A program made the position numbers and the translations under genes. 64,000 bases of DNA, taken from Leptolyngbya boryana PCC 6306. GTDB taxonomy: Bacteria; Cyanobacteriota; Cyanobacteriia; Leptolyngbyales; Leptolyngbyaceae. This document shows, piece by piece, positions 3,485-55,318 of the stretch; the stretch's first letter is position 1, and every line of letters begins with the position of its first letter. Below the pieces are notes generated by a model. The model ran no database searches. It was not told where the DNA came from and saw nothing but the letters and a program-made list of their open reading frames with translations. The DNA is taken from NCBI RefSeq assembly GCF_000353285.1, contig NZ_KB731324.1:4234577-4298576 (forward strand). The letters run 5' to 3'.

Positions 3485-3593
3485 TGAAATTTCGGATATT
3501 TATCTTGATCCACAATACCAAGATCCGGGAAGTTACGCGAACTCGCCCGGTCAGGTAATCCGATCAGGTGAAGTCTTGGATCGCGAAACTTTT

Positions 3594-3599
3594 TATAGT
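3594..3599 (+). promoter_or_regulatory. Possible -10 box for the leader/sRNA upstream of the 3769 gene
   Basis: TATAGT lies where a -10 element would put a transcript start near 3606. The matching -35 is poor: TGAAGT sits 19 bases upstream. This is inference from sequence only. Confidence 0.3.
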
Positions 3600-3605
3600 G
3601 AATCG

Positions 3606-3753
3606 AGAAGGACTGCCCCGAAGCAAGGGCTAAGAGCCTCCTGGAAATCGTAAAGACTGTTCGTCATTGCACGACAACTGCTCGTACAGTGATCTGTACA
3701 CGAATCAAGAAAATACCTCTTTACAGCAGCGACATGATGTCGCTGCTTTTTTT
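3606..3753 (+). ncRNA. Candidate structured leader RNA or sRNA ending in an intrinsic terminator
   Basis: No coding gene on the plus strand precedes the strong terminator at 3725-3753, so something non-coding must be transcribed into it. The interval folds locally: AGGA (3609) with TCCT (3639) enclosing a GCCC/GGGC stem, then GTACAG/CTGTAC (3684-3699), then the terminator. The next gene starts only 16 bases after the T-run, which is the arrangement of an attenuator or riboswitch-type leader; a free-standing sRNA of about 150 nt is the alternative. It does not match the cobalamin, TPP, SAM, glutamine or fluoride consensus elements as I remember them. Confidence 0.4.
3725..3753 (+). terminator. 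Rho-independent terminator
   Basis: AGCAGCGACAT pairs perfectly with ATGTCGCTGCT (3737-3747) and is followed directly by a run of T. It is oriented for the plus strand and stands just before the gene at 3769. Confidence 0.85.
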
Positions 3754-3768
3754 GGGCACACTGATTGA

Positions 3769-4569: not shown

Positions 4570-4805
4570 AAACTGTAAAGAAATTTGAATTCAAATATCA
4601 CTGTAAATTCGACTGTTCAGTCTCCAGATAGACGAAATCGTTTGCCAAAAGAAATTAATCTCAAACCTATCAGGATCACTCTCATACTTCTCATAAAGCA
4701 ACAGAGTTGGTGATCGTCATTCTGGAATTTTATTCGGTTGAAATTCAGCTTATTTTTGGTGCTGCACTTTGCTGCGGGGTCAATTTTTTACTGTGAGGAT
4801 GACTT

Positions 4806-6437: not shown

Positions 6438-6445
6438 TAGATCTC

Positions 6446-6475
6446 AAACTAGGAGCAGAGAGTGCTCCTAGTTTT
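6446..6475 (+). terminator. Rho-independent terminator after the porin gene
   Basis: AAACTAGGAGCA pairs perfectly with TGCTCCTAGTTT (6463-6474), loop GAGAG, followed by a short T-run that is partly inside the stem. Confidence 0.85.
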
Positions 6476-6495
6476 GACCTTTAGGACACACAGCT

Positions 6496-7644: not shown

Positions 7645-7659
7645 AAGCTGAGATCCTCG

Positions 7660-7690
7660 GAAGTTGGAGTTCTGAAAAAACTCCAACTTC
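7660..7690 (+). promoter_or_regulatory. Intercistronic hairpin between binding protein and ATPase genes
   Basis: GAAGTTGGAGTT (7660-7671) pairs perfectly with AACTCCAACTTC (7679-7690), loop of 7 bases, with no T-run after it. This arrangement commonly stabilises the mRNA of the abundant binding protein against the transport subunits; that role is inferred. Confidence 0.6.
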
Positions 7691-7726
7691 TCGTTTACAT
7701 AGAATTCTTGCAACTACAACATCTCT

Positions 7727-8545
7727 ATGAGTAACTCAGTTTTATCAACACAATCAGAAGCGTCTTCAAGCTCAACTCGGCCGACGCTAGAACTCCGCAA
7801 CATCTGCAAATCTTTTGGAGGGGTACAAGCTCTCAAGAATGTCGATTTTGAAGTCTATGCGGGCGAAGTCGTGGGTTTAGTTGGCGATAACGGGGCAGGA
7901 AAGTCTACGCTCGTGAAAACCATGTCAGGCGCTTATGTGCCGGATTCGGGTGAAATTTTTCTCAACGGAGAGCGAGTCTCGATCGCTTCACCTCAAGATG
8001 CGACCCGTCTCGGCATTGAAACGGTTTATCAAGACCTCGCGCTCTGTGACAATCTCGATGTGGTTGGCAATCTCTGGTTAGGGCGAGAAGCCTATCGCTG
8101 GTTGATTCCAGGCGTTCTCAAGGTTCTCGATGAGACTGAAATGGAGCGCCGCACGATCGAAGTTCTCAAACTCCTGGATGTGAAAATTCCATCGGTTCGC
8201 CGTCCGGTTGCTGCCTTATCAGGTGGACAACGGCAATGTATTGCAGTCGCGAAAACGATTCTGCGATCGCCGAAAGTTGTTCTTCTCGACGAACCGACCG
8301 CAGCTTTAGGTGTGGCTCAGACTCGCCAAGTCCTCAACTTGATCCAACGGCTCAAACAACAAGGCTTAGCAGTCGTCGTTATTTCGCATAACTTACATGA
8401 TGTCTTTGAAGTCTGCGATCGCGTGATTGTCATGCGGTTAGGACAACGAAGTGCAACGTTTGACATTCAGAGTTCTACATCAGAACAAGTTGTTGCTGCC
8501 ATCACAGGCGCAGAATATCGCGATCCTCAACCCGAAATATTATGA
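7727..8545 (+). CDS. Sugar ABC transporter ATP-binding protein, single nucleotide-binding domain
   Basis: 272 residues with one complete ABC ATPase: Walker A GDNGAGKSTLVK, Q-loop region around TVYQDLALCDN, signature LSGGQRQ, Walker B VVLLDEPTAALG and the switch His in VISHNLHD. Sugar importers of this class often have a duplicated ATPase of about 500 residues (XylG, RbsA); this one has a single domain, as in the FrcA type, so two copies would pair. It powers import through the permease whose start codon overlaps its stop (ATGA at 8542-8545), indicating translational coupling. Confidence 0.94.
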   Translation: MSNSVLSTQSEASSSSTRPTLELRNICKSFGGVQALKNVDFEVYAGEVVGLVGDNGAGKSTLVKTMSGAYVPDSGEIFLNGERVSIASPQDATRLGIETVYQDLALCDNLDVVGNLWLGREAYRWLIPGVLKVLDETEMERRTIEVLKLLDVKIPSVRRPVAALSGGQRQCIAVAKTILRSPKVVLLDEPTAALGVAQTRQVLNLIQRLKQQGLAVVVISHNLHDVFEVCDRVIVMRLGQRSATFDIQSSTSEQVVAAITGAEYRDPQPEIL

Positions 8546-9765
8546 AAACAGATGCGAACGATCGAGCTTCAGCGAATGCTGAAATGAGCGATCCACAAAG
8601 TTCTCGATCGAAATTTACTTTAAGTTCTCTGATGCGGGGTGATCTGGGATTTATCCCCGTTCTCGTTACGCTTGCATTGATCACGCTATATTTTCAACTT
8701 ACAACGAGTGGCATCTTTCTCCAAGCTCGGAATCTGACGAATCTGACTCAGCAGATTGTTGTGATTAGTATTCTCAGTACTGCTGCTGTTTTAGTGCTTT
8801 TACTGGGCGAAATTGATTTGAGCCTAGCAGCCGTTGCTCAAGCTTGTGCAGCCATCATGGCGACGCTTTCGGTCTATCAAAACTGGGGCGCAATTCCGTC
8901 GATTTTAGCCGCGTTAGTCGCAGGCGCAATCATTGGGTTAGTCAACGGCTTTTTTATTGCAATTCTGCGCGTCCCGTCGTTTATTGTGACCCTAGCAGGA
9001 TCGATTGGATATGCTGGATTCTTGCTATTAGTTCTAGGGCGACAAACCACGCTGATTGTTCGTGATCCTGTGATCCGATCGCTGGCTCCAACTTATTTAA
9101 ATCCGGTTTTAGGTTGGGGGATTCCGATTGTGCTCGCGGCACTTTATGCGATCGGGGTCTGGTATGAACGGCGGAAACGGCTGCAAGCAGGATTGCCTGT
9201 GAAACGATCTTCAAACCTTTTAGCTCAAGTTGCGGCAATTTTCGCGATCGTATTTCTGATCGTGTTCTTGTTCCAGACTTATCAAGGTGTGCCGCAATCG
9301 GTGATGATTTCGCTTGGGATTGTTGTTGCGCTCTGGCTAGTTCTGAGAAAAACGCTGTTTGGTCGGCATCTTTATGCGGTCGGTGGTAATGAAGAAGCGG
9401 CAAGACGGGCGGGCATTAATGTCATTGGTATGAAGATGGCAGTCTTTACATTGGCATCGATGCTAGCAGCAGTCGCCGGAATTATGCTGACTTCACGGAG
9501 TACAGCAGTCGCGACTCAGATTAGTGCAACGTTATTGTTAAATGCGATCGCGGCAGCAGTCATTGGTGGGGTTAGTTTATTCGGCGGTCGCGGCTCAGTC
9601 TGGGCAGTCATTTTAGGCGCGCTTGTGATTGGAAGTTTGGATAATGGACTAGATTTGCTCAACCAAGATCAGAGTGTAAAGAACATTGTTCAGGGAATTG
9701 TGCTAGTTCTAGCAGTGACAGCGGATGCATTAGTTCGTCGATCGAATCCGATACGAGGCAAATAG
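8542..9765 (+). CDS. Sugar ABC transporter permease (XylH/RbsC type)
   Basis: 407 residues with many hydrophobic segments, the BPD_transp_2 family. Characteristic segments are LLGEIDLSLAAVAQ near residue 95, GLVNGFFIAILRVPSFIVTL near 135, and the cytoplasmic ATPase-contact loop GRHLYAVGGNEEAARRAGI near 275. It forms the inner-membrane channel and, as a homodimer, pairs with the ATPase of the preceding gene. The ATG overlaps the ATPase stop by 4 bases. A perfect inverted repeat about 80 bases downstream may end the transcript. Confidence 0.94.
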   Translation: MKTDANDRASANAEMSDPQSSRSKFTLSSLMRGDLGFIPVLVTLALITLYFQLTTSGIFLQARNLTNLTQQIVVISILSTAAVLVLLLGEIDLSLAAVAQACAAIMATLSVYQNWGAIPSILAALVAGAIIGLVNGFFIAILRVPSFIVTLAGSIGYAGFLLLVLGRQTTLIVRDPVIRSLAPTYLNPVLGWGIPIVLAALYAIGVWYERRKRLQAGLPVKRSSNLLAQVAAIFAIVFLIVFLFQTYQGVPQSVMISLGIVVALWLVLRKTLFGRHLYAVGGNEEAARRAGINVIGMKMAVFTLASMLAAVAGIMLTSRSTAVATQISATLLLNAIAAAVIGGVSLFGGRGSVWAVILGALVIGSLDNGLDLLNQDQSVKNIVQGIVLVLAVTADALVRRSNPIRGK

Positions 9766-9845
9766 CGCTTAGACCAAAAGCTTGGTTCGTGAATTTCAAG
9801 CGATATCGATCTATCAATCCTGTTTGATGTGTAAGATCTTGCAAT

Positions 9846-9898
9846 TTGGGGGAATAGGGAAAATACTTCCCCATTCCCCCATTCCCCTATTCCCCCAA
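9846..9898. repeat. Perfect G-rich/C-rich inverted repeat (dispersed family, copy B)
   Basis: TTGGGGGAATAGGG (9846-9859) and CCCTATTCCCCCAA (9885-9898) are perfect 14-base complements. The C-rich interior CCCCATTCCCCCATTCCCC is a short tandem repeat. Related elements occur near 36738, 44267 and 61048. It may serve as a terminator for the permease gene or the opposing miniprotein gene. Confidence 0.75.
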
Positions 9899-10052
9899 CC
9901 GATTTAAGACTGCAATAGCCAAATGCTCGATCGAGCACATCCGAATGCTGATTCCGAAACATCGAGAACTTTGCGATCGCCCTAAATAAGAAATAAAAAA
10001 GAGCCTACAGACTGCAAGCTCTCTAATCTTTGAGTAAACGAAATCAAGCTAA

Positions 10053-10193
10053 CTAACCTAACAGGTAGGCAGAGCGAAGTGCCCATAAAATTAGCACGCC
10101 GATACTGCCGAGAATAAGAGCCGCAGAAATAGCAATCACAAGCGGACTGTCTGCGCCCTCGAACTTCATAATCCCACGATTTAGGTCTGACAT
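10053..10193 (-). CDS. 46-residue single-helix membrane miniprotein, unknown
   Basis: ATG at 10193, stop TAG at 10053-10055. A ribosome site ACGGAGTG precedes the start. The product begins MSDLNRGIMKFEGADSP and continues with one long transmembrane helix (LVIAISAALILGSIGVLILW) followed by ALRSAYLLG. The form, with a short polar N-terminus and one membrane helix, is that of the tiny accessory subunits of cyanobacterial photosynthetic and NDH-1 complexes, but I do not recognise it as any particular Psb, Psa, Pet or Ndh subunit. It is monocistronic. Confidence 0.65.
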   Translation of the reverse strand: MSDLNRGIMKFEGADSPLVIAISAALILGSIGVLILWALRSAYLLG

Positions 10194-10369
10194 GAGTGCA
10201 ACACTCCGTAACGTTTAGTAAAAGGTCGATGATTTTCCTTTAGGGTAATTCACAGATTTTTCTGTACCCTTCTTTCTCAAGCATTATTTTATCTTTCTGC
10301 TCAAATAAGTTTAAATAATCTCCGAATCTTAACCGAATTTTTGCATCAATTTTGCACTCAGCGGTCAAG

Positions 10370-11320
10370 ATGGTAGGGCAAATCACACACTGCCCCGGAA
10401 TGACTTGGCTCAGCATCACGATCGCGCTTCTGACCACCGTTCTCATCCTGCTCGAAATCGCCCTGAGACTTTTCTTTGGTTTTGGCGATCCGCTGCTTTA
10501 TGTCGCTGATCCTGAGATTGGCTATCTGCTCGCTCCGAATCAGTCGGTCAAGCGGTTTGGCAACCGGATCGAGACGAATCAATTTTCCATGCGATCGCCA
10601 AACTTCGCCCTGAAACCCGAAGCGAAACGAATTTTACTGCTTGGAGATTCGATCATTAACGGCGGCTGGTGGACAGATCAAAAAGATGTCATTTCCGAAC
10701 TCATGCAGCGATCGTCGGCTGCGAATGGCAAACTTGAAGTTCTAAACGCTTCCGCAAATTCCTGGTCGCCTCGGAATGAATTAGCGTATCTCAAACGATT
10801 CGGAACTTTCAATGCAGAAGTAATTATTTTAGTCATCAATACCGACGATTTATTTGGAACGCAGCCCACCTCTTTAGGAGTCGGACGCGATCGCAACTAT
10901 CCCGATCGCAAACCGATGAGTGCAATTCAAGAAGTCCTCGATCGATACCTTTTACCTGCGCCCGCCATGCCCGAAGCATTCAAAAAAATCCAGGCTGAAG
11001 GCGGCGATCGCGTCGGCTTAATCTTAGATGCGATTCGAGGAATTCGCGACCTTGCACATCGTAACAATGCAAAATTCGTCTTAGCAATGACCCCGTTGTT
11101 GAGAGAATTAACACCGCCAGGTTCGCGAGATTATGAAATTGTTGCCCGAAAACGATTAATGGATATGACTCAAACTGAGCAAATTAAGTACATTGATTTC
11201 CTAACGATCTTTGCAGGCGCAGCAAAATCAGCTCCCCCAGAAACACTTTATCGAGATCACATTCATTTAAGTCAAGGTGGGAATCAGATCGTCAGTGAAT
11301 GGCTACTTCAAGCAATTTAA
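10370..11320 (+). CDS. Membrane-anchored SGNH/GDSL-hydrolase-like protein
   Basis: About 317 residues. One N-terminal membrane helix (MTWLSITIALLTTVLILLEI) places the rest outside the cytoplasm. The SGNH fold is supported by the nucleophile block LLLGDSIINGG near residue 85 and by the C-terminal DHIHLSQGGNQIV containing the Asp-x-x-His pair near residue 300. Substrate is unknown; relatives act as O-acetyl esterases or lipases on polysaccharides or lipids. Starts possible at TTG 10352, ATG 10370 or ATG 10400; the last begins right at the membrane helix, and none has a good ribosome site. Confidence 0.8.
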   Translation: MVGQITHCPGMTWLSITIALLTTVLILLEIALRLFFGFGDPLLYVADPEIGYLLAPNQSVKRFGNRIETNQFSMRSPNFALKPEAKRILLLGDSIINGGWWTDQKDVISELMQRSSAANGKLEVLNASANSWSPRNELAYLKRFGTFNAEVIILVINTDDLFGTQPTSLGVGRDRNYPDRKPMSAIQEVLDRYLLPAPAMPEAFKKIQAEGGDRVGLILDAIRGIRDLAHRNNAKFVLAMTPLLRELTPPGSRDYEIVARKRLMDMTQTEQIKYIDFLTIFAGAAKSAPPETLYRDHIHLSQGGNQIVSEWLLQAI

Positions 11321-11408
11321 TCGATCTTTTCGATGATCTTCGGCAAGCTTGAGGAATGTTCTTGATCGATCGTGAATTTAGTACAGCAAGGTTTCAGAGG
11401 TTTGAAGA

Positions 11409-12383
11409 ATGGCTCTATTAGGGATTGATATTTCGGCTTATCAAGAAGATGTCAACTGGGCAACGGTTGCGAGCCAAAGCGTCTTTTATGGATTTGCGAA
11501 AGCGACAGAAGGTGTCACTAGTCGCGATGAGAAGTTTGCCCGAAATTGGGCAGGAATGCGATCGGTCGGAATTGTCCGCGGAGCATATCACTTCTTTCGT
11601 CCGGGTCGAGATCCCGCTCAGCAAGCCGATAACTTTTTGAAAACAGTGCAAACGATCGAAGATTTCGATTTACCTCCAGTCCTCGATCTAGAGATCAATG
11701 ATGGACAGAGTGCAAGTGTGGTCATCGATCGAGCGTTGAAATGGTTAGAAATCATTGAAGCGAAAACAGGACGCAAACCGATTCTCTACACTTATCCTTC
11801 GTTCTGGGAAGATAAACTTGGCAATACCGCCAGATTCTCGGAATACCCACTGTGGATCGCAAACTTTGGGACACCTGGAAGACCGTATATTCCCTCAGCT
11901 TGGAAGCTTTGGGTATTTCATCAATATTCGGAATCTGGAACTCTACGCGGCATTGTTGGAAATGTCGATCTCAATCAATTTAATGGGGATTTAGATGGAC
12001 TGCAAAAGCTGTTGAAAGGTCGCATTCCGTTAAGACAAGGCTGTGAAGGCAATGTCGTTCAAGAAATGCAATCTTTACTGAAAGCTCAAGGCTTTGACCT
12101 AGGCACACCAGATGGAGATTTTGGACCCAAAACGAAAGCGCAGGTTGTTGCTTTTCAGAAAGCAAAGAGCTTACTCACTGATGGCATTGTTGGAGCGGCG
12201 ACTTGGAGTGCGCTGCAAAAAACTAGCCCAAGCGTTCCTCCTGCACCGCTGCCCATCGATTTAATCAATGTCTGTAAATCCTACCGAGGTGCAGCTCATC
12301 AAGATTCATCTTTGAGATGGTTACAGAGTCAAATTCCGAAATCGACCTTGGATGAGTTTGCTAGACGGTGGAGGCAGCCATAG
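11409..12383 (+). CDS. GH25 lysozyme with C-terminal peptidoglycan-binding domain
   Basis: 324 residues. The glycoside hydrolase 25 domain (about 1-190) shows GIDISAYQEDVNW, FGFAKATEG, GAYHFFRPGRDPAQQADNFL, the catalytic-region acidic residues VLDLEINDG, and YPLWIANFG. A PG_binding_1 domain follows at about 205-270 (FGPKTKAQVVAFQ, DGIVGAATW). The enzyme should cleave the MurNAc-GlcNAc bond. No signal peptide is visible, so export would need another route or holin-type release. GH25 plus PG-binding proteins occur in both phages and bacterial chromosomes; no phage genes surround it. Confidence 0.9.
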   Translation: MALLGIDISAYQEDVNWATVASQSVFYGFAKATEGVTSRDEKFARNWAGMRSVGIVRGAYHFFRPGRDPAQQADNFLKTVQTIEDFDLPPVLDLEINDGQSASVVIDRALKWLEIIEAKTGRKPILYTYPSFWEDKLGNTARFSEYPLWIANFGTPGRPYIPSAWKLWVFHQYSESGTLRGIVGNVDLNQFNGDLDGLQKLLKGRIPLRQGCEGNVVQEMQSLLKAQGFDLGTPDGDFGPKTKAQVVAFQKAKSLLTDGIVGAATWSALQKTSPSVPPAPLPIDLINVCKSYRGAAHQDSSLRWLQSQIPKSTLDEFARRWRQP

Positions 12384-14841: not shown

Positions 14842-14959
14842 GTGTCCAGTTCCTCTCTAGATCTAAAATCTGCCGTCGATTGCGGGGCAGAAACATTACT
14901 TAACCCTGAAAATTCTATCTCAAAAGCGAGGGGGCAAGGTTAGAATCACACCGAAAACC

Positions 14960-14993
14960 AAAAAAGCCCTGTCCACTAGGCATGGACGAGGGC
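14960..14993 (-). terminator. Rho-independent terminator upstream of sodB
   Basis: Read on the minus strand: GCCCT, then GTCCA in the left arm, pairing with TGGAC and AGGGC in the right arm, followed by six T. One unpaired base interrupts the stem. Confidence 0.75.
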
Positions 14994-15075
14994 AATAAAT
15001 CAGGGTGCATCTACCATTCCTTCTTCCTAGAATTTACGCTTGTTCTCCGGAGACTCTGGGTGGGAATACTTAAAG
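14960..15075 (-). ncRNA. Candidate small RNA or leader upstream of sodB
   Basis: A strong terminator (14960-14993) points along the minus strand, yet no protein gene lies upstream on that strand before the divergent CHAT gene at 15325. The preceding 80 bases contain CTCCGGAG and other self-complementary segments. Either a short RNA is made and ends here, or this is an attenuator in the sodB leader. The 5' end given is an estimate. Confidence 0.35.
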
Positions 15076-15324
15076 ATGAGACAAAGTTTTCTTGAACTTT
15101 CAGTAACGTTTAAGTAAACGTTCAGTCTACTCGTGGAGTTGTTCGTCAGGATGCCAATGACTTTGCTATCGATCGCGTCAAAATTTGCAATGCTAATAGG
15201 TGTGATCGTGTAAATTCAGAATTTTCCCTGACCGATGACGATCATGTGCGGTTATTAGAAATTAGGATCGAATTGTCTTCAGGTGGGGCAAGTCGAAACC
15301 AGTCAGGTTGACGGAGGGTGTCGA

Positions 15325-17934
15325 GTGAATCAGGAGTTCTACATTTCTGTTACGCCAGTTCGGGGCGATGAATATTTGGTGAGAACAGAGCGCGTCTCAC
15401 CGGGCGTTCCTTTGGCGGAGGAACTCGTCACTTGGCAAGTCGAAGAGTGGCTCGAACAGGCACGTCAATTGATGCACGATCCGCTGTTGGGAATTCTGCG
15501 GGGCAGAATGGGATCGCTCAGTCCATCGGCAACGGGCAGTGATGCCCTTTCTCCAAATTTAGTGGAATTGGGGCAAAAACTCTACAATGCCCTATTTCAA
15601 GGAACGATTCGAGATAGCTGGGTAACGGCGCAGGGGATTGCACAAAATCGCCGCGAAGGCTTGAGATTGAGATTAGGACTGAAAGGCGATCGCTTGCCGC
15701 GTTTGCCCTGGGAAGTACTGCACGCGGGAGCACGTCCTTTAGCCACGGGAACCGATGTCGTGTTTTCACGCTATCAGGCGGCATTTGCGCCGATGGGGAC
15801 GATTTTGCAGCCACATCGATCTGCGACGGTAATCGATGCCAATCAGCCGCTGAGAATTCTCATGGTTTTGGCGGCTCCGACGGATCAAGAAGTCTTGGAA
15901 CTCCGCCGAGAAGCGAATCATTTGCGCGATGAATTGAAAGAAGAGGCAAATGGCAAAATTGACCTGACGATTTTGGATCAGCCTGGACGTGAGCAATTGA
16001 CGCAAGCGTTGGAGCAAGGGCATTATCAGGTCTTGCATTATGCGGGTCACAGCAATTTAGGCTTGGCAGGCGGAGATTTATATCTCGTCAGCGATCGTAC
16101 TGGACTGACTGAGGTTCTCAGCGGCGATGATCTGGCTGGATTGCTTGTGAATAATGGCATTCGTATGGCAGTGTTTAATTCTTGCCGAGGGGTTTATACG
16201 GCGACCGCTGATCCGACGAATGAAACGGAGTCGAGCAATTTAACCGATGCCTTGCTGAAGCGGGGAATTCCGGCGGTTTTGGCAATGGCAGAACGCATTC
16301 CAGACGATGTGGCATTGACGCTTAGCCGCTTGTTTTATCGCAATTTGAAACAGCGCTATCCGATCGATTTAAGTCTCAGCCGAGCGCGTCAAGGATTGCT
16401 GTCCTCTTATGGCTCGAATCAGTTGTATTGGGCATTGCCGATCCTTTATCTGCATCCTGATTTTGATGGCTATCTGCAACCGACTGCGCTGCCTTCAATG
16501 ACGAATGCAGGACAAGAGCCGCAACCCGCAAATTTTGCATTTGATCCCCTCGCGATCGCAAATGATCCCGCTGATTTAGACGAGGCGGAAATGTTGTTTG
16601 ACGATTTAGAATTTGCTGATCCTGAAGATAGCGATCGTCAAGCGGTGCTCGAATTACTGCAAGAGCTGCATGAGCCAACCGAGAATCCTTTTTCTCAAGC
16701 TAGAGCCGCAGAACCATTCTTTGAACCACTCTCAGTGACGACTGACGAATCAACGCTGCAAAATCCCGAGGATTGCCTCGCAGTCGGTCGAATGCGTGCC
16801 CAAGCTGAGAATTTGACGGGGGCGATCATTGCGTATGGTCGCGCGATCGAGCTTGATCCGCACTGTGCCGAAGCCTTCAGTGAAATGGGCGTCGTCTTAG
16901 AAAAATTAGGCAGTCCAACAGAAGCGATCGTGGCTTACAAGATGGCACTTCAGCATGAGCCGAGTTTGAGCGATGCCCGTCGCAACCTGCAACGACTGGA
17001 AACCGCGCACAATTTGGGCAGTGGGAGCAATGGCGGCGCAGTACAACCGTCACCTAATCCCGTTGTGCCTGAACTGCATGTCGAGGATGTGACCTTCGAG
17101 GAGCCAATGCCGAATCGGATTTTCGGGGAGATGAAAGCGCCCTCTGCTCCGCGTCCTCGTCGTCCTTGGATTGTGGCTGGTATTTTAGGAACGGCTGTGG
17201 CGGCTGTTTTGGGAGTTTGGGGCTTTTCGACTTGGCGCGCTTCGACGACCCCTTCTCCAAGTGAGTTGATTGACAATATCAGCCAGATCAACCAATCTCC
17301 AGGCGCAAATGTCAGTCGATCGAACAATCTGGTTGCGACTGCGACGACTGCACTGGCTCAGGGAAATCTGCGTCAGGGACAAGATGCGATCGAAGAGTTG
17401 CTGAATAATGGTGAATTAGTGGCTGCGGAGACGGCGATTCAAAATGTTCCTGCCGACAAACGACGCGATAATCCAACCGCGAATTTCCTATTGGGACGAA
17501 TTGCTTGGCAATCGGTGCAGGCGAGGAAGAGCAATTACAAATTAGATGATGCTCAGCGATTTTTTGAAACCTCGCTGGCAGGGAATCGTACACCTCAGAC
17601 GCTCAATGCTTTGGGGTTTGTTTACTACGCTCAAGGTAATTTTGGTCGTGCCGGAAGAACTTGGCTCAATGCTGAGAAGCTGGCAGCACAGGCAGGAGAT
17701 GCAGGCAAACTGGATCGACGTACGGCGTTGGCTGGGTTAGCATTAGTTGCCAATAAAACAGCGCAGTCTCAGACGGGAAATCAGCGCAATCAGCTGAGAC
17801 AGCAAGCAGTAGCAACCCGCGATCGTTTACTGCGAGAAGCAGGGCAGGACTTTCAAATCAGTGGCTTGAGTAAGAACTGGCTCTGGAGTGAAGCTGCGAT
17901 CGCCGACTGGAAAGCATTGATTGCTGTGAAATAA
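15325..17934 (+). CDS. CHAT-domain (caspase-like) protein with TPR repeats and a membrane helix
   Basis: About 869 residues. The start is taken at GTG 15325 because GGAGGG lies six bases before it; the longer frame from 15283 has no such site. A CHAT domain occupies about 90-370, with the His of LHYAGHSN (about 237) and the Cys of VFNSCRG (about 285) forming the expected Cys-His dyad. TPR motifs follow at about 485-560 (GAIIAYGRAIELDPHCAEAF, EAIVAYKMALQHEPS), then one membrane helix near 612-635 and a second helical repeat region. CHAT proteases are caspase relatives linked to regulated proteolysis or cell death; the target here is unknown. It has no operon partner. Confidence 0.9.
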   Translation: MNQEFYISVTPVRGDEYLVRTERVSPGVPLAEELVTWQVEEWLEQARQLMHDPLLGILRGRMGSLSPSATGSDALSPNLVELGQKLYNALFQGTIRDSWVTAQGIAQNRREGLRLRLGLKGDRLPRLPWEVLHAGARPLATGTDVVFSRYQAAFAPMGTILQPHRSATVIDANQPLRILMVLAAPTDQEVLELRREANHLRDELKEEANGKIDLTILDQPGREQLTQALEQGHYQVLHYAGHSNLGLAGGDLYLVSDRTGLTEVLSGDDLAGLLVNNGIRMAVFNSCRGVYTATADPTNETESSNLTDALLKRGIPAVLAMAERIPDDVALTLSRLFYRNLKQRYPIDLSLSRARQGLLSSYGSNQLYWALPILYLHPDFDGYLQPTALPSMTNAGQEPQPANFAFDPLAIANDPADLDEAEMLFDDLEFADPEDSDRQAVLELLQELHEPTENPFSQARAAEPFFEPLSVTTDESTLQNPEDCLAVGRMRAQAENLTGAIIAYGRAIELDPHCAEAFSEMGVVLEKLGSPTEAIVAYKMALQHEPSLSDARRNLQRLETAHNLGSGSNGGAVQPSPNPVVPELHVEDVTFEEPMPNRIFGEMKAPSAPRPRRPWIVAGILGTAVAAVLGVWGFSTWRASTTPSPSELIDNISQINQSPGANVSRSNNLVATATTALAQGNLRQGQDAIEELLNNGELVAAETAIQNVPADKRRDNPTANFLLGRIAWQSVQARKSNYKLDDAQRFFETSLAGNRTPQTLNALGFVYYAQGNFGRAGRTWLNAEKLAAQAGDAGKLDRRTALAGLALVANKTAQSQTGNQRNQLRQQAVATRDRLLREAGQDFQISGLSKNWLWSEAAIADWKALIAVK

Positions 17935-17979
17935 AACAGCAAAACTCTCTGTTGTTCGGTTTTCTCAATCCAAACCGCA

Positions 17980-18627
17980 TTACGCTTGCCGACGGATATC
18001 CAACATTTCTGCCAAGCTGGGATCTTGCATTTCCAATGCATTCTCTTGTTCAGAAAGATGGATAGGTGGAGGAGTCGATCGCTTGAACGTTGCTTTCGCA
18101 GTTGCTGCGGCTTGTCGAGTTGGAGGCGTTGGGAGATTCGCTTGCGGAATCGGCATTCGAGGTCGGCGTGAACTGGTCATTTCGCGCAATTTTACAGGTT
18201 TCGGTTGAATGACGACAGACCTTGCCGGGGTTTTAGGGCTTGATTTCACAGGTCGCAACTGCTTCGCCAGCACGACGGAAGTCAAGGCGCAACTGCCCGC
18301 GACGATCGCTAATAGTCCAAATGAGCTGGCAGGAGTCGGGATGTGCGAATTGGCTTGTGGAGCTTTGGCAGTGGCTTGAGGTTTGGGTGTTTCAAGCGGA
18401 GCGGAATTGGTGTAGGTCAGTCCCCGAGCAGCAAGCCAGCCAAAGTACAGAATTGCACCCCAAGTTGCAAATAAGCAGATGAAGGGATGGCGTTGGGCAA
18501 AGTGCAGCAAGAAGCGAGAAGTCGATCGTTTTGCAGTAGATGGCGGCTTCACAGCTTTTTGACGTGCAGATTGTCTCACAGGGTGTGGGCGGGTGACAGA
18601 TTTCAGGGTGTTGGATGGATTGCCCAT
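17980..18627 (-). CDS. Basic two-helix membrane protein, unknown
   Basis: 215 residues. A basic, Ser/Pro-rich N-terminus of about 40 residues, a membrane helix near 45-70 (FICLFATWGAILYFGWLAA), a Pro/Ala linker, a second helix near 100-125 (FGLLAIVAGSCALTSVVLA), then a long basic Pro-rich tail with RPRMPIPQANLPTPPTR. No catalytic motif is visible and I do not recognise the family. It converges on the CHAT-TPR gene, 45 bases away. Confidence 0.7.
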   Translation of the reverse strand: MGNPSNTLKSVTRPHPVRQSARQKAVKPPSTAKRSTSRFLLHFAQRHPFICLFATWGAILYFGWLAARGLTYTNSAPLETPKPQATAKAPQANSHIPTPASSFGLLAIVAGSCALTSVVLAKQLRPVKSSPKTPARSVVIQPKPVKLREMTSSRRPRMPIPQANLPTPPTRQAAATAKATFKRSTPPPIHLSEQENALEMQDPSLAEMLDIRRQA

Positions 18628-18788
18628 ATTGAGTATCTTGCGTTCAACGTCAACAGTCGGTTTGAAATTGTACTACAGAAAATTTCTTTATTTGGCTAAT
18701 AATGCCCGATTCAGCGATCTCGCGCAACCCATCTAAAGACATAAACTGTATAGTCTTATTCGATCAGAGATGATCCCGTCAGAATGAT

Positions 18789-44378: not shown

Positions 44379-47300
44379 TCAAACTGATATTTCTGCTGCA
44401 ACTCCTCCAATTGACGTTAAGAAGGCTAAGAGTTTTGAGGTTGTGCCAGCGGCGAGCAAAGCTAACTTCACTTGAGCTTTTGCTAGTTCTGCACTTGCAA
44501 ATAAAGTCGAGCCACCTTGATCAAACAAGCCCGCGACCCAGATAAACGAATCTGGTAACTGCCGTTCGCGAACATCATGATTGCTCGATCGACGTGCATC
44601 ATCGATCACAATACTGTACGCGACCGTTTGCAAGAGGAAATGACTTGGATAGAGGACAGTTTCTAATCCAGCATTTGCCTTTTTGACTGTGCCTACGTCC
44701 CTTGCCCCTTTGACTTTTGCTAGAATTGCCGCTGAGGCTCCTTTCATTGCAATCCAACCTGAAATCGCAATCATTGACCACTGTAATGCTTCGACTGCTG
44801 TTCGCAACGCTGCTGGCAAGCTAGACACGTCCCGACGACCCATGATTTCTGCTGCAAGCCCAATTCCGCCAAAAGCAGAAGCGAGTCCAAGTGCGACTTC
44901 GGGTGGAAAAGCAGGTTCTTCTTCTGAAGCTGCTGAGGCACTTTGATAAAGCGAGATCGCTGATTTCGCAAATGCACCGACGAGTGTGCCAATCCAAGCA
45001 TATCGCTTGATGTCTGCAACACCAGACTGTACGGTCATAGGAGTGTTAAAAGGCAGAATCAACTTCTCTCCTTTTTTGAGTGGAGCTTCTCGGAAAAACA
45101 CTTTGTAGCTGAGTGTGCCGGGGATCGCGAATAGTAACATCAAGGCATCAATTAACCGGAATGAAGTATCGACTTTTACACCCGGAAGCACCAGATTGAC
45201 CAACTTCTCAATGAAGGGAAATCGCACTTTGAGGAACAAAGTATCTCGAAGTACTCCGATGATGTCTTTCATCAATTCGAGCGATCGCATTAACAGATCT
45301 CGTAAGGTCTGTAGCAAGCCAGACAATGCTTCTGCACCGACTGCAATTAAGACATTCCGAATCAATTGAAAATTCAAGTCTTTGCCTGTTGGGATCTGAT
45401 GGTTAAACAGTGCAGACAAGTCAGCTTCAATCTGCTGCCAGCACGCGAATAGATTGTCCGCTGTATCTGAAAATAGTCCTTTGATAAAAGATTCCGCAGC
45501 TTCGGTTGCTTCAGTTATAGGATTTGGACTTTCGATACTGATAATTTGCGAGCCAATATCTTTGATACGCTCATTGATCCAAGCAACTACACTGTTGCCA
45601 GTCGCTCGATCAATCAATGTTTGAATCGGAGCTGTGATCGATTGCAAGTCATCCAAAATACTTGCACCAGGAGCGATAGGTGCTAGCTTTTTCGGAGGCA
45701 CTCCTGATTCTGTCCGCCAATCTTCGAGTTGATTCAATGCTACATCAAACCCTTTATCGACATGAGTTTTGAGAGTAGAAATCGAAGCTTGAAAATAGCG
45801 GAGGGCTTCATCTGTTGCCTCGACCATCGCATCGCGCACGTACAGAATATCATTCCAGTCAAAGAGAAGCTTCAGGTGTTCCCAAACCCACTCAGCTTTG
45901 ATTTTCACTTGTTCCCAGAGCCATTTGAAGAAAGATCCGACTTCTTCGAGGGTCTTGATAGCAAATCGCTTAATTTTGTCTCCCAGTTGGCAAATAAACT
46001 CATAGGCTTCTCCAGCTTTTTGAATCACAAACACTGCGCCTTTGTAAATGAGGTCGCCCACTCCCTCAAAGAAATCTGCGATCGTATCTCCTAAGTTCGT
46101 AAAAAACTCGCCTGCACTCTTGGATTTGACAAGCCGATCGACATCACTCTGCAACGCTGCCTTTAAGCCTTTAGCTGTAGCGATGATCCCCCACTGATAC
46201 CCTTGTGGTACGGTGTCCGATCGTAATTCAGAACTGTAAGCTGCATTGGGTTCGACGAGCCGCACTCCTGGAGCAACGGTGGTGGTTGAATCAGTGAGTT
46301 TTGCGACTTGATTTAATGCAGCCGAGATCGCATCGACTTGAGTCCGATTCGCTCCAGTACGGAAGCTTTCGGATAACAGTGAAAACGTGCCTTCTGGAGT
46401 TGTAAAGGTTGCCGATCGCAGATCATCCGCAGTCATCGTTTTGAATCGTTGATGCACACTTGCAGCAGGATTAACTTCGATCGCTTTATCAATCGATTCG
46501 ACTGAGAAACGATAAATCGCAGGAGTCAGCGATCGCACTGCATCAAATATGCTCACAGCGCCATTGGCATCCGTTTCCGTCTCGATTGACACATTAGGAC
46601 TGAGAAAGACGGTTTCATTGTTCATCACTACGCTACACAGTACGGATGCTGAAACAGTTACTTTGCGATTCGGTTGGGGTGTTCCTACTGCATCAAGCAC
46701 TCGAAGTGAAGTGCCATAGCAGGGAATCCGAGTTAGCTCACCCGCATCTACAACGAGAATCGGAGTTTCTTGCCAAACGCCCGTTCCTGCATCTTGCCAA
46801 AGATAGCTAGCACGACTATTCGTGTAAACAATCAATAGCGAAGTTGTTGCATAGTCATCTCCTTGGATCGGTGCAATCTCTTGTACATCCGTGCGCAGGC
46901 GTAACGGCGCACTCCAGCCATTCGTCGATCGCTTTACAATGTTCAAGTCACCATTTTGTAGCAATGTCCAAACTGCGATCGTTCCGTCTGCATTATCTCC
47001 GATGACTAAATCTTCAACATTTGGTGCTAATTCTACGGGCACAATTGCTTCAACTTTTGCTTTCGCGGCTTGATCCTGCTCATCGGCTGAGATGAACTGA
47101 GTGCCTTGTCCTGCAATGTAGAGATCGCTAGCACCGTCGCGAGTCACAGTTGATTCGAGAACCGTTGCTCCTGCTGGACAAGGTAAAACAACTACAGGTG
47201 GAGTCGATACAATCTGTCCTGTCTTGTCATAGGTTGGGAATGGACGGAAAGAAAGCACACGCTTCCCTCCACTTGTTCCGAGGACATGCAAGCCACCTCC

Positions 47301-47969
47301 AAAGACAGGATGTACTCCAACTTCAAAGTCAAAGATTTCTTGCAAAGTCACGGCTGGATTGAAGACAAAAGCTTGATTAAACTTCTGTCCTGGTCTTAAC
47401 AAGTAAACGGCTTCATTTGCACCTTGATTTCCTGCTAGGACAATTGTCCAGTGATTGCCATCATCCAAGACGCGAATTGCAGCGAGTCGCATCATGGCGC
47501 GAGTTCCACAATCAATCCAAGGAATGTTATCCCAATCGGTATGTTGGCTGCTGAGATCATAAGCAACAAAGACGCGGCTGAGCGAAGGTTGAACGGGATC
47601 GCTGACTGCAACGGAGATCGTAATGCGATCGTCATCTGTCCAGGCAGCACCCAAAGCATGAACTTGAGAATTTCCGAAAGCACGATTGAGATCAAATCGT
47701 TTCCAGCCTGAGCTATCTTGGCGAACGAGCGAGAGTTGGTTGCGATTGCCGATCGTTAGCACCATTGGCGTAAGGACAGTAGAACGTCGATCGGGAATCG
47801 CAATGACTCGACGTTGGAAGCGTCCTTGTTGTTGTGGATCAGCGAGATCTTCTCGTCCAAAGGTGCGAGCAGATGCCATGTAATCGATGATATCGGTTGA
47901 AACTGTGAAGCGGGTGGATTGTCCTTGCTGGTCGAGAGTGGAAAAGCTAGTAACGTTTGGAGTGTTCAT
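44379..47969 (-). CDS. Large uncharacterised protein: beta-rich N-terminus, helical hydrophobic C-terminus
   Basis: 1196 residues, no signal peptide. Residues about 60-420 read as repeated beta segments with Trp and Asp/Gly turns (WKRFDLNRAFGNSQ, SYLWQDAGTGVWQETP), like a beta-propeller. About 425-520 resemble an Ig or carboxypeptidase-regulatory-like unit (DANGAVSIFDAVRSLTPAIY). From about 530 the protein is helical, with an amphipathic Trp-rich stretch near 680 (FFKWLWEQVKIKAEWVWEHL). Four hydrophobic segments lie near 943, 995, 1030 and 1065. I do not recognise a characterised family. The layout would fit a pore-forming or membrane-inserting protein, but that is inference. It follows the 536-residue gene on the same strand. 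Confidence 0.85.
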   Translation of the reverse strand: MNTPNVTSFSTLDQQGQSTRFTVSTDIIDYMASARTFGREDLADPQQQGRFQRRVIAIPDRRSTVLTPMVLTIGNRNQLSLVRQDSSGWKRFDLNRAFGNSQVHALGAAWTDDDRITISVAVSDPVQPSLSRVFVAYDLSSQHTDWDNIPWIDCGTRAMMRLAAIRVLDDGNHWTIVLAGNQGANEAVYLLRPGQKFNQAFVFNPAVTLQEIFDFEVGVHPVFGGGLHVLGTSGGKRVLSFRPFPTYDKTGQIVSTPPVVVLPCPAGATVLESTVTRDGASDLYIAGQGTQFISADEQDQAAKAKVEAIVPVELAPNVEDLVIGDNADGTIAVWTLLQNGDLNIVKRSTNGWSAPLRLRTDVQEIAPIQGDDYATTSLLIVYTNSRASYLWQDAGTGVWQETPILVVDAGELTRIPCYGTSLRVLDAVGTPQPNRKVTVSASVLCSVVMNNETVFLSPNVSIETETDANGAVSIFDAVRSLTPAIYRFSVESIDKAIEVNPAASVHQRFKTMTADDLRSATFTTPEGTFSLLSESFRTGANRTQVDAISAALNQVAKLTDSTTTVAPGVRLVEPNAAYSSELRSDTVPQGYQWGIIATAKGLKAALQSDVDRLVKSKSAGEFFTNLGDTIADFFEGVGDLIYKGAVFVIQKAGEAYEFICQLGDKIKRFAIKTLEEVGSFFKWLWEQVKIKAEWVWEHLKLLFDWNDILYVRDAMVEATDEALRYFQASISTLKTHVDKGFDVALNQLEDWRTESGVPPKKLAPIAPGASILDDLQSITAPIQTLIDRATGNSVVAWINERIKDIGSQIISIESPNPITEATEAAESFIKGLFSDTADNLFACWQQIEADLSALFNHQIPTGKDLNFQLIRNVLIAVGAEALSGLLQTLRDLLMRSLELMKDIIGVLRDTLFLKVRFPFIEKLVNLVLPGVKVDTSFRLIDALMLLFAIPGTLSYKVFFREAPLKKGEKLILPFNTPMTVQSGVADIKRYAWIGTLVGAFAKSAISLYQSASAASEEEPAFPPEVALGLASAFGGIGLAAEIMGRRDVSSLPAALRTAVEALQWSMIAISGWIAMKGASAAILAKVKGARDVGTVKKANAGLETVLYPSHFLLQTVAYSIVIDDARRSSNHDVRERQLPDSFIWVAGLFDQGGSTLFASAELAKAQVKLALLAAGTTSKLLAFLTSIGGVAAEISV

Positions 47970-47999
47970 GATTTTATGTTGAAGAGTTGAAGTGGTTTA

Positions 48000-48023
48000 G
48001 GGATCTGAGATCCAACAGATCCC
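48000..48023 (-). promoter_or_regulatory. Intercistronic hairpin between the two large unknown genes
   Basis: GGGATCT (48000-48006) pairs with AGATCCC (48017-48023); 10-base loop, no T-run. It lies in the 69-base gap and may set different mRNA levels for the two genes. Confidence 0.5.
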
Positions 48024-48038
48024 GAATTGCAAGTAGAA

Positions 48039-49649
48039 CTAAGGAGCTTGATAGATTACATCCATGAGCAGATCGCCCGTTTGATCGGAGAAGTGGAGAT
48101 TCTGAAACGTAAATACACCGCCGCCCGGAGGAATGAATTGATGCTTCGAGAGATCAATATCAATTCGAGACAGCACGCCCTGGAGAACTTGGCTGATTTG
48201 ATTGACTCGATCTTGTGCAGCATTCCCTAGTTCTGTTTCCATATCTTTGATCCCGAAAAGCTTTTGGAAAGCTTTCGTTACTTCTGCAAAACCATCGGTA
48301 TCACCGGAAATCTGAATGGGTGAAAATTGAGGATCGTTGAGATCGGGATGAATACTAAACTCAGTTCCAATTCCTTCAGCAGTTAGTGTAATAGAAGCAC
48401 TGAAAGTTCGAGTTCCTGAACCATTCACAGATAGGCTCGGCAATCCATCTTTATTAACTAGGGTAGGGAGAGTGCGCTCTCGATATGTCCGAGAGCTAGA
48501 AATTTGACCAGAGATACTCAGAGTATTCGTGCCTGGTACGAGCGTAATACTCACGGCATAACTATCACTGGAATCGAGAATCCGTTGGACGATGTCTTTG
48601 CGTCGATCGCTTCTAGAATCCGACTTGGAGTAAGTCCGAGTATTCCCGTTGACCATTGGAGAAAAGCCAAACTGTTGAGTAAACAGAGGAATTAAATATT
48701 CATCAAAAAACTTCTCTTTGCGAATCGCCATCACGCCGGAAATCGTCGAGGTTTGACCATTGATTTGATCAGGGCGAATCCAATCATCTTTGAGATTAAT
48801 GCGTGCTCCATTACGATCGCTCGGCAGAGCACGATCCGAGAACATCCCTAAATAGCTCAAAGTACTTGCTTCCGGAGCGATCTCATTCGGATCGACATGG
48901 AAGATAAAGTCGGTCATCGCAAACGTTGGCGTTGCTTGTTCACGGTTTCGTCGCACCACGGTTCCGAGCATAAATTCGCCCATCTCGCCTTGCAGCAATA
49001 GATTCAGAGATTCAAGTGCTTTCGTTTTTGCAGCTTGTGGAACTTCCGCAGGGATCTGAATCTGTTGTCCGCCAGAAAGTAGGAGATCAACAGTTGTAAA
49101 CTTCAGGAATAAATATTCGATCGAGAAAACGGATTCGGGTAGACCCGACTTTGAGATTGTTTCACTTGCAAGATTTTTAGCATCGGGATCAATCGCTGCT
49201 AAGGTTTTGAGATCGACAGGTTTCTTGTCGAGATCGACTACAACTCCAATGCTCCAATCTTCGATCGGATAGGTAGCTTTATCTTCCGCTTCTTCATCGT
49301 AGTAAGTTACTACTCCTGACTGTAGATGCAGAGTAACATTGACTTGCCCCAGTTTGCCGTTCGGAACATTAAAATCAATGGTAATGGGTGCCAGTTTTGT
49401 ACGAATGCCGTAAGTTGCAGGAACTTGTTGACCATTTTTATTCAGTTTAAATTTAGGAAGAACAATTTCACTTTCAATGTTTTTGCGGCGTACCCATGCT
49501 TTCCAAGCGTATTGAAGCTGAGTGTTGATTGCTTGTTGCGTCAAGGCTAATGCCATATCAAAATCAGTGAGGGCATTTTTACTATCACCCCGTTTTGCTA
49601 CGCTCCGAACTTCATTTGCGCGTAGAATAGCTCTGTTTTTTAGAAACAT
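48039..49649 (-). CDS. Uncharacterised beta-rich protein upstream of the 1196-residue gene
   Basis: 536 residues, no signal peptide or membrane helix. The N-terminus FDMALALTQQAINTQLQYAW is an amphipathic helix; the rest alternates beta strands such as PITIDFNVPNGKLGQVNVTL and AVSITLVPGTNTLSISGQIS. Segments IEYLFLKFTTVDLLL and SASITLTAEGIGTEFSI continue the pattern. The helix-plus-curved-sheet rhythm recalls TULIP/P47-like lipid-binding proteins of toxin clusters; this is a visual resemblance only, with low certainty. First gene of a two-gene unit with the 1196-residue protein, and divergent from a subtilase. Confidence 0.85.
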   Translation of the reverse strand: MFLKNRAILRANEVRSVAKRGDSKNALTDFDMALALTQQAINTQLQYAWKAWVRRKNIESEIVLPKFKLNKNGQQVPATYGIRTKLAPITIDFNVPNGKLGQVNVTLHLQSGVVTYYDEEAEDKATYPIEDWSIGVVVDLDKKPVDLKTLAAIDPDAKNLASETISKSGLPESVFSIEYLFLKFTTVDLLLSGGQQIQIPAEVPQAAKTKALESLNLLLQGEMGEFMLGTVVRRNREQATPTFAMTDFIFHVDPNEIAPEASTLSYLGMFSDRALPSDRNGARINLKDDWIRPDQINGQTSTISGVMAIRKEKFFDEYLIPLFTQQFGFSPMVNGNTRTYSKSDSRSDRRKDIVQRILDSSDSYAVSITLVPGTNTLSISGQISSSRTYRERTLPTLVNKDGLPSLSVNGSGTRTFSASITLTAEGIGTEFSIHPDLNDPQFSPIQISGDTDGFAEVTKAFQKLFGIKDMETELGNAAQDRVNQISQVLQGVLSRIDIDLSKHQFIPPGGGVFTFQNLHFSDQTGDLLMDVIYQAP

Positions 49650-49730
49650 GTTGCGGTTCCTCGGATAGGTTTGTGGTGTCTTGTTGAAGACTCTTTTACG
49701 ATATGGGAACTGCTTAGGTCAGTCGATAAT

Positions 49731-49750
49731 GGAAAGTTATGGAAAGTTAT
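49731..49750. repeat. Tandem 10-base repeat in the divergent promoter region
   Basis: GGAAAGTTAT occurs twice in a row (49731-49740, 49741-49750), followed by GGAG. It lies between the 536-residue gene and the subtilase and may be an operator shared by both. Confidence 0.65.
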
Positions 49751-49816
49751 GGAGTTGAAAATAGAGTGCTGAATGGTGGTTTTTAATAGGATGAGAGTGG
49801 TTTCAGAGAGGTGCTT

Positions 49817-50572
49817 ATGCAATCATCGAATCTCATCAGTGTGGCTGTGATCGATACGGGTGCTGATCCTGAGCGAGTGAATGCTGCTCACTTGCTGCCC
49901 GGATTAAATTTGAGTGATGAAGGCGATCGCAATGAAACCATCGACTATGGAACGCACGGAACCGCAATTGCTCAAACGATTCTACAGATCGCGCCAGAAG
50001 TACGGATTGTTCCGATTAAAATCGTGAATCGGCAAGGGATTCTTCGCAATCTAGAAGCAATGTCGATCGCATTTGAATGGATTCTCGAACATCACGATCG
50101 ACTGAATATCCGAGTCGTGTGTGCTGCGATCGCAGATATAACCTGTTCTGAATCCGATGAGTACTATGCTGAGCATCCTTTGCGTCCTTTGATTTCTCAG
50201 CTCCGAAATTCACAAGTTGCAACGGTTGCAGCAGCCGGAAATGGGTATGCACATCATCATCGGCAAGGCATGGCATTTCCAGCAATTTTGCGAGAAGTGA
50301 TCAGTGTTGGAGCGATCGCACAAACGCCAGCCGGATTGCAACTCGCAAACCATTCACAACGGCTACATCCTAGTACTGGAACAGGTTGCCATACCACATT
50401 TTTTGTAGAACCGGGTGCGCCCGGAGACACGAGCGGAGCCGCCGCAACTGTTGCGGGTCGTCTGGCAAAATTAGCTCAGTCTCAAACAACGATCAATGAA
50501 TGGATTGATCAGTTAGAACAGTCTTGTCAAATCGTGCGCGATGAGGATGGATTAGAGTGGGAAATCATTTAG
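49817..50572 (+). CDS. Compact subtilisin-like serine protease (S8)
   Basis: About 251 residues from ATG 49817 (GAGG just upstream; GTG 49811 is the alternative). The triad is readable: Asp in VAVIDTGAD (residue 13), His in DYGTHGTAIAQ (about 51), oxyanion Asn in VAAAGNGYAHHH (about 140), Ser in PGDTSGAAATVAGRLA (about 215). There is no signal peptide or propeptide, so it probably works inside the cell. The Ser motif DTSGAA differs from the usual GTSMA. It is divergent from the unknown two-gene unit and may process one of those proteins (inference from position only). Confidence 0.88.
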   Translation: MQSSNLISVAVIDTGADPERVNAAHLLPGLNLSDEGDRNETIDYGTHGTAIAQTILQIAPEVRIVPIKIVNRQGILRNLEAMSIAFEWILEHHDRLNIRVVCAAIADITCSESDEYYAEHPLRPLISQLRNSQVATVAAAGNGYAHHHRQGMAFPAILREVISVGAIAQTPAGLQLANHSQRLHPSTGTGCHTTFFVEPGAPGDTSGAAATVAGRLAKLAQSQTTINEWIDQLEQSCQIVRDEDGLEWEII

Positions 50573-54283: not shown

Positions 54284-55318
54284 GTGTCGAATCTCACGCC
54301 GGAACCAATTGAGGTGTTCGTCTCGTATTCACATCGAGACGAGTTGTTGCGGGATGAATTGGCAAAGCATCTGAGTATTCTGAAGCGTCAGGGCGTGATT
54401 AAAGAGTGGCACGATCGAGAAATTAGCCCAGGATCAGAATGGAAAGGCGAGATCGATTCTCATCTGAATTCGGCGCAGATTATTTTGTTGCTGATTAGCG
54501 CAGATTTTTTGGCTTCAGATTATTGTTATGACATTGAATTGACAAAAGCGTTGGAGAGGCACGACCGCAAAGAAGCCTGCGTCATCCCGATTATTTTGCG
54601 CCCTGTCGATTGGAATGACGCTCCGTTTGGAAAACTCCAAGCGCTACCTGAGAATGCTGTACCTGTGACCAAATGGGAAAATCTTGACGATGCTTTTCTC
54701 AGCGTGACGCGGGGGATTCGTCAGACGATAGAACGATTGAAACAAGCACATCACGATAAGCTAGAACAACCAGAGAGAGAACGACAAAACTCACCAAAAC
54801 TAGGTCAAATTAAAGAACATCAGGAAAGACAGCAGCAAGCTGTGCAACAGCCATCTGAGCAAGACACCCCTCAGCAAAATAATAAACAAGTCAGAAAGCA
54901 TGATTGTCTAGTCAAAAGACTACCTTGGAGTCCGCTAATCTGCCTTGTATTAGGGTATGGTCTGTTAGGCTTTTTACTATCCGTATCTGCTGCTGAGATT
55001 CGAGTGTGGGCTTTGACTTTGGCTGGGGTTTTGATTGAGGCTGGAGCTTGGGTTTCGGTGAAGGCTTGGGCTTGGGCTTGGGTTCTCGTTGGAGCGTGGG
55101 CTTTGTCTGGAGCTTTATATGGAGCTTTAGGTAAGGTGTTAAATGGATCTGGTGCTAGTGTTGCAGTTGGAATATGGACTTTGGTTTTTGCTGGGGTTTG
55201 GGCTGGGAAACAGCTTTTGGAGTCGTTCAGTAGAATTGATACATGTTTTATTTTGGCTTTCACTTCAACGATCGGTTTAGCACTTGGAGCTTTAACCTAC
55301 TGGATCACTCATCGCTGA
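54284..55318 (+). CDS. TIR-domain protein with a Trp/Ala-rich membrane C-terminus
   Basis: 344 residues from GTG 54284; no ribosome site, so translation may be leaderless. A TIR domain at about 5-150: EVFVSYSHRDELLRDEL, KEWHDREISPGSEW, IILLLISADFLASDYCYD, then the helix with IELTKALERH, whose Glu is at the position of the catalytic Glu of NAD-cleaving TIRs. A Gln-rich linker follows. The last 130 residues hold several membrane segments with a repeated Val/Trp/Ala rhythm (VKAWAWAWVLVGAWALSG). TIR proteins can hydrolyse NAD+ in defence. Membrane fusion forms suggest sensing or effector action at the membrane. Confidence 0.9.
   Translation: MSNLTPEPIEVFVSYSHRDELLRDELAKHLSILKRQGVIKEWHDREISPGSEWKGEIDSHLNSAQIILLLISADFLASDYCYDIELTKALERHDRKEACVIPIILRPVDWNDAPFGKLQALPENAVPVTKWENLDDAFLSVTRGIRQTIERLKQAHHDKLEQPERERQNSPKLGQIKEHQERQQQAVQQPSEQDTPQQNNKQVRKHDCLVKRLPWSPLICLVLGYGLLGFLLSVSAAEIRVWALTLAGVLIEAGAWVSVKAWAWAWVLVGAWALSGALYGALGKVLNGSGASVAVGIWTLVFAGVWAGKQLLESFSRIDTCFILAFTSTIGLALGALTYWITHR

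Follow-up and report, generated by a model that had tools for sequence, protein, structure and literature searches.

A linked gene set of a modular large protein, its partner and a leaderless subtilase in a Leptolyngbya-type cyanobacterium, tentatively read as a membrane-inserting effector system

The three genes and their parts

The window, that is the whole stretch of 64,000 nucleotides analysed here, sits on a 6.26-Mb contig of a Leptolyngbya-type cyanobacterium. Its reverse strand carries the open reading frame of a large protein of 1196 residues (LP; 44379..47969) and, 69 bp upstream on the same strand, that of its partner, of 536 residues (SP; 48039..49649), the two being probably an operon. 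On the forward strand, a leaderless subtilase of family S8 is encoded at 49811..50572; its 253 residues are counted from a GTG, and translation more probably begins at the ATG at 49817, which is preceded by a purine-rich stretch. The three reading frames lie exactly where the initial annotation of this DNA had placed them. The same annotation held that LP and SP fall outside characterised families, and so they do, since neither has a Pfam match above cut-off (the best being at E 0.058 for LP and 0.16 for SP) nor any hit in NCBIfam up to E 1. That they are not mere chance reading frames is shown by their orthologues: LP and SP are 74% and 80% identical to their counterparts in a genome of the same genus (G022, locus L009), and 46% each to those of Methylocystis (locus L012). 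The composition of the region is unremarkable, and scans for promoters and terminators gave no excess over shuffles.

From the N-terminus onwards, LP comprises four parts, all on the reverse strand: a propeller-like head (residues 63-411, 46737..47783, from a profile of eight relatives), whose last part (about residues 320-405) resembles the repeats of the PLL2 lectin; an Ig-like beta region (about residues 412-530, 46380..46736, from an HMM of nine relatives), which opens the C-terminal module shared by the family; a helical core (residues 619-975, 45045..46115) with the motifs F-x-W-x-D-I (703-708) and AIPxT (948-952); and a hydrophobic tail (residues 976-1196, 44382..45044). No signal peptide is visible by eye at the N-termini of LP proteins. 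The AlphaFold2 model of LP, made with two sequences, has a mean pLDDT of 30.5, too low for the model to be of use.

The subtilase matches the Pfam family Peptidase_S8 (PF00082) at E 4.5e-13, with 49.6 bits against a cut-off of 21.8. Its catalytic residues are intact, Asp15, His49 and Ser208 as well as the oxyanion Asn144 being invariant in all three orthologues. It had been described as a small protease without signal peptide, and none is indeed seen by eye; by length and alignment it has no prodomain either. Among solved structures it is closest to CylA, a lantibiotic leader peptidase, and to intracellular proteases, followed by forms of subtilisin BPN'; the best NCBIfam model, QhpE, scores 52 bits where its cut-off is 165.

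Between the starts of SP and the S8 gene lies a 10-bp tandem repeat of 2.5 copies (49729..49753; 25 bp); no other perfect period-10 run in the window reaches 22 bp. The repeat between the divergent genes is real; the joint control that had been proposed across it finds no backing, for the equivalent gap at the nearest orthologous locus has no such repeat by eye, and the protease gene of Methylocystis is situated behind LP.

A constant C-terminal module under exchanged heads

A profile of the LP core matched 24 of the 388 genomes of the class, of which the 18 at E 2.7e-39 or better were treated as real, a patchy distribution; six genomes at E 8.4e-7 to 2.9e-4 and a contig-end piece of G566 (C52) were left out. 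Together with plasmid records and a search of the phylum (five matches among 386 genomes, the own genome included and one judged false), this profile yielded 28 LPs, six of which come from a plasmid collection searched on purpose. They are spread over cyanobacteria and three proteobacterial plasmids. Not retained were a protein of G236 (L025), LEA-like and repetitive by reading though it scored 35.7 bits, a 102-aa match at L059 that reads as an ArsR-type HTH, and L008, which shares its contig with L009. Plasmids pB and pA of Kovacikia minuta carry LP-type genes (L014, L027), and L072 is probably a third one in that same strain.

The heads of these proteins differ. The propeller-head profile was built on eight LPs, and the other 20 of the 28 do not match it. 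In the PDB it retrieves PLL2, a beta-propeller lectin of Photorhabdus, at E 0.0012 for the whole chain; with a profile of the whole LP, PLL2 comes out at E 0.0059 and PHL, a related lectin, at E 4.6. The likeness is confined to one stretch of the head (profile positions 274-353 of 368), which can be aligned to PLL2 at four places in succession, weakly in each case (12.6 bits and i-E 0.53 for the best). The label "propeller-like" given to this region from the sequence is thus weakly supported by that stretch, the remainder of the head having no match.

Fifteen of the 28 LPs were scanned with Pfam. LamG domains are found above cut-off at L026, L028, L059, L063 and L068, accompanied at L028 by PQQ repeats and at L068 by DUF7910, also above cut-off, as are the DUF7910, FRG1 and fascin matches of the paralogue in the own genome (L011); crystallin matches in LP relatives stay below it. 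At L071 (3315-8945), nine VHL-beta stretches are recognised at E 3.3e-100, domains which to our knowledge are unusual in bacteria. Because the HMM of the Ig-like region and the core recur under different heads, the constant part of LP is taken to be the Ig-like region, the helical core and the hydrophobic tail, the head being the part that is exchanged.

Some loci show further irregularities. Upstream of the LamG-headed LP of L063, a gene at 3524-6499 begins with an apparent decayed copy of the LamG start of LP, and continues with a signal-peptide-like stretch, an inverse-autotransporter match below cut-off and a beta helix; at L060, too, the gene in front of LP encodes a beta-helix protein. 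At L023 (8406-12339), behind a transposase-like gene, a 937-aa LP-like gene precedes a frame of 351 aa that contains hydrophobic stretches, and the locus looks rearranged.

The HMM of the Ig-like region, built on nine LPs, recognises the region in 17 of the 19 LPs outside the build, with E-values that refer to the 28-protein set, and misses L026 and L071. The unit first described as Ig-like is accordingly a conserved region, for which no solved Ig fold was matched. The two core motifs both occur with variants among the relatives. The 85 residues before the first of them form an amphipathic stretch in every one of the 12 members tested among the 28, the mean helical moment exceeding in each that of all 500 shuffles. 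They contain one to four tryptophans, so that of the "Trp-rich amphipathic stretch" the amphipathic half is upheld and the richness in tryptophan is not. Likewise, the hydrophobic tail is present and its count of four segments is not confirmed: the window LP has one transmembrane-like segment at the usual cut-off and eight behind the motif at a relaxed one. The sequence is compatible with a membrane-inserting LP, as had been suggested.

Searched against the PDB, the helical core finds generic helical proteins, led by a designed bundle at E 0.0026 and including, weakly, apolipoprotein A-IV at E 0.015. This last match, and the amphipathic helices of all 12 members tested, lend themselves to another account, on balance somewhat unlikely, according to which LP and SP attach to membranes or lipid bodies within the producer, as a coat or in the manner of apolipoproteins, and the subtilase turns both over. 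LP proteins do look cytosolic, that of L071 has a weak ApoLp-III match (E 3.9e-4, below the Pfam cut-off), and in genome G001 (L010) two lipoxygenase genes (14863-16740 and 16840-18639) lie behind SP-LP and an AAA-like gene. However, lipoxygenases are found at one locus only and helical matches of this kind are generic, and heads of the LamG and lectin types would be odd for lipid work within the cell.

Linkage of LP, SP and the protease

The initial annotation had made its case depend on whether the three genes are linked in other genomes. They are kept together in two phyla, and three more distant relatives of LP likewise have a subtilase next to them. The nearest relative carrying LP, SP and S8 is Leptolyngbya sp. 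Prado105. In G022 (L009) the same three genes stand in the same order, the subtilase being 68% identical to that of the window, beside the 74% of LP and 80% of SP; none of the other window genes tested matched at that locus, and the flanks differ. The set's neighbour in the window, gpmI, is on another contig in G022, with no set in the surrounding 9 kb. An ABC-F-like gene (by reading) and gpmI are adjacent in five of six other genomes of the genus (G021 left out), and the stretch examined in those five contains neither LP, SP or S8 nor any of the six tested genes that lie to the right of these.

Outside cyanobacteria, a plasmid of the alphaproteobacterium Methylocystis sp. MJC1 (L012) bears SP, LP and S8, the latter 43% identical to that of the window, LP and SP 46% each. 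Here the S8 gene is behind LP on the opposite strand, relocated yet still adjacent. A tree built on the shared core groups the Methylocystis LP with the two Leptolyngbya-type LPs, fully supported, to the exclusion of the other cyanobacterial LPs; the set must therefore have crossed phyla in some way. The differing flanks of the two Leptolyngbya-type sets would also suit three genes that are neighbours merely by inheritance of one mobile stretch, with no joint function. That view is very improbable, for the linkage of the protease survives rearrangement and recurs in distant LP relatives, and none of the searches turned up an SP without LP. The three genes belong together.

The dependence of SP on LP is observed throughout. 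A profile of six SPs matches four of the 388 genomes of the class, in all four directly upstream of LP, and two further cases are on plasmids of Methylocystis and Stanieria, so that six out of six SP finds are directly upstream of LP; in these genomes and the plasmid records no SP without LP was found. Conversely, SP is present at six of the 28 LP loci, and all six are among the eight LPs with the propeller-like head. As for the two propeller-headed LPs without SP, the contig of L058 ends 109 bases upstream of LP, and the gene upstream at L023 reads as a transposase. At the remaining 20 of the 28 loci, no SP is seen in the stretch examined, some of these stretches being short.

What kind of protein SP is was first judged from a rhythm of helix and curved strands reminiscent of TULIP and P47 proteins. 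An SP of this fold would turn the set into a toxin helper complex of the orfX-p47 kind, which appears distinctly improbable. An N-terminal motif of some SPs resembles, as we presume, that of P47 proteins, and the order of helix then strands is found in the AlphaFold2 model of SP (two sequences, mean pLDDT 35.2), where an N-terminal helix is followed by beta strands with low confidence; both count for a TULIP protein. On the other hand, the six SPs have no P47 match in Pfam up to E 10, nor any Pfam match to speak for a TULIP protein. The P47 profile (PF06597) finds nothing at the six SP loci at E values up to 10, its one match there being off-locus, on another contig of G022, at E 0.72, while four of 14 control genomes match at the same threshold, Bacteroides ihuae above cut-off; in a wider scan, one of 292 genomes matches, below the family cut-off. 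Against the PDB, the SP profile yields a pilin at E 0.2 only and no P47 or OrfX chain, assuming that these are in the PDB set. The sequence of SP, in Pfam, PDB and P47 profile searches alike, therefore does not bear out the TULIP assignment. These negatives speak to the sequence of SP, not to its fold, because remote TULIP relations often escape sequence comparison (PMC6791001), a point that counts for the TULIP reading. So does the presence of lectin domains in P47 proteins of some clusters (PMC7020563).

Subtilase genes stand beside LP or SP-LP at six of the 28 loci (the window, L009, L012, L011, L068 and L071). At three of them the S8 gene immediately follows LP in the same orientation, overlapping it by 8 bp at L011 and by 4 bp at L068, and separated from it by 12 bp at L071; a 113-aa frame at L068 was dropped, being the end of its protease. 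The other 22 loci showed no adjacent subtilase; some of these stretches are cut short by the end of the contig. In the own genome, S8 matches number nine over 7.26 Mb, or roughly one per 800 kb, yet each of its two LP loci has a subtilase: next to SP in the window, and next to LP at L011 (contig C1, first 16 kb), where the LP paralogue at 7492-11703 is overlapped by a 399-aa S8 gene at 6300-7499. Under simple spacing, the chance that both loci would have one is estimated to be of the order of one in ten thousand.

A protease and a putatively membrane-active protein in one set, patchily spread, might also serve internal defence by altruistic death, infection firing the subtilase and thereby freeing a membrane-breaking tail, as in bacterial gasdermins. 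Along the same line, PADLOC recognises the S8 protein with a general subtilase model (E 1.5e-7). TIR genes occur near a Kovacikia homologue and in the window, where a TIR protein with a hydrophobic C-terminal part (54284-55318) has a strong match to the ThsB model (PADLOC, E 2.7e-62), and the Undibacterium stretch includes an Avs1c gene. Yet no PADLOC model matches LP, SP reaches just E 0.039, the neighbours of SP-LP are, as far as annotated or recognised, mostly genes of metabolism, transport or signalling, and the binding heads are of an external type. Altruistic death is less supported than the lipid account, and improbable.

A tentative reading and its relation to known systems

The explanation that we prefer, tentatively, is that LP is a glycan-targeted, membrane-inserting effector with an exchangeable head, made without a leader and processed by the protease. 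Its beta-rich head, here propeller-like with lectin-type repeats, would serve recognition, and the Ig-like region would join it to a conserved tail of amphipathic and hydrophobic helices that is probably membrane-active. The adjacent cytosolic subtilase most likely would process LP, or SP, leading to maturation or activation, and the propeller subtype may require SP as its dedicated chaperone or as a second component. LP might be released on lysis or by some other route and act on grazers or competing cells. Glycan binding, membrane insertion, the processing of LP or SP, release and another cell as the target are steps that we infer. An outside target is favoured because the heads are lectin- and LamG-type, and an ordinary secretion route is disfavoured because no signal peptide is visible.

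Two other origins were considered and rejected. The payload of an eCIS or phage tail is one, since the genome has no match to the sheath gene PF04984 (three of 14 control genomes match) and hence no injector of that type. The other is a phage or virus, LP being without match in phage records; in viral contigs no match was confirmed by one scan with SP and three with LPs, of six short peptide patterns each. A tail-tape-measure match of LP (PHROG, E 1.5e-7) was taken as generic helix similarity.

A wider and more doubtful proposal is that LPs constitute a hitherto undescribed class of leaderless effectors that insert into membranes and occur across phyla; swapped heads would retarget a constant tail, a dedicated subtilase would arm it, and SP would be obligate in the propeller subtype. 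The openly accessible journal literature, searched by title and opening of the abstract, showed no description of the LP family. The modular family and the three-gene set are defined here from several independent loci, with LP and SP unmatched by Pfam and NCBIfam. If the effector reading is true, cyanobacteria and plasmid-bearing proteobacteria share an unrecognised membrane weapon that can be retargeted.

Among known systems, P47 and OrfX resemble SP in size and in the impression of helix then strands only, and differ in that SP matches no profile of theirs. CylA, QhpE and intracellular serine proteases share with the subtilase the S8 family, the catalytic residues and the lack of a signal peptide by eye, whereas the window protein has only 253 residues, no prodomain and a score far below the QhpE cut-off. 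In polymorphic toxins, domains are swapped around a conserved module; LP has domain exchange in common with them but swaps the head and keeps the C-terminal module, and no immunity gene was recognised. The last part of the LP head weakly matches four places of PLL2; the PLL lectins of Photorhabdus, PLL2 and PHL, are stand-alone lectins, whereas LP extends about 800 residues further. Bacterial gasdermins are encoded with adjacent proteases, and the pairing of a membrane-active protein with a protease would be an analogous arrangement in the LP set; no shared fold is apparent, and LP is far larger, with binding heads of an external type.
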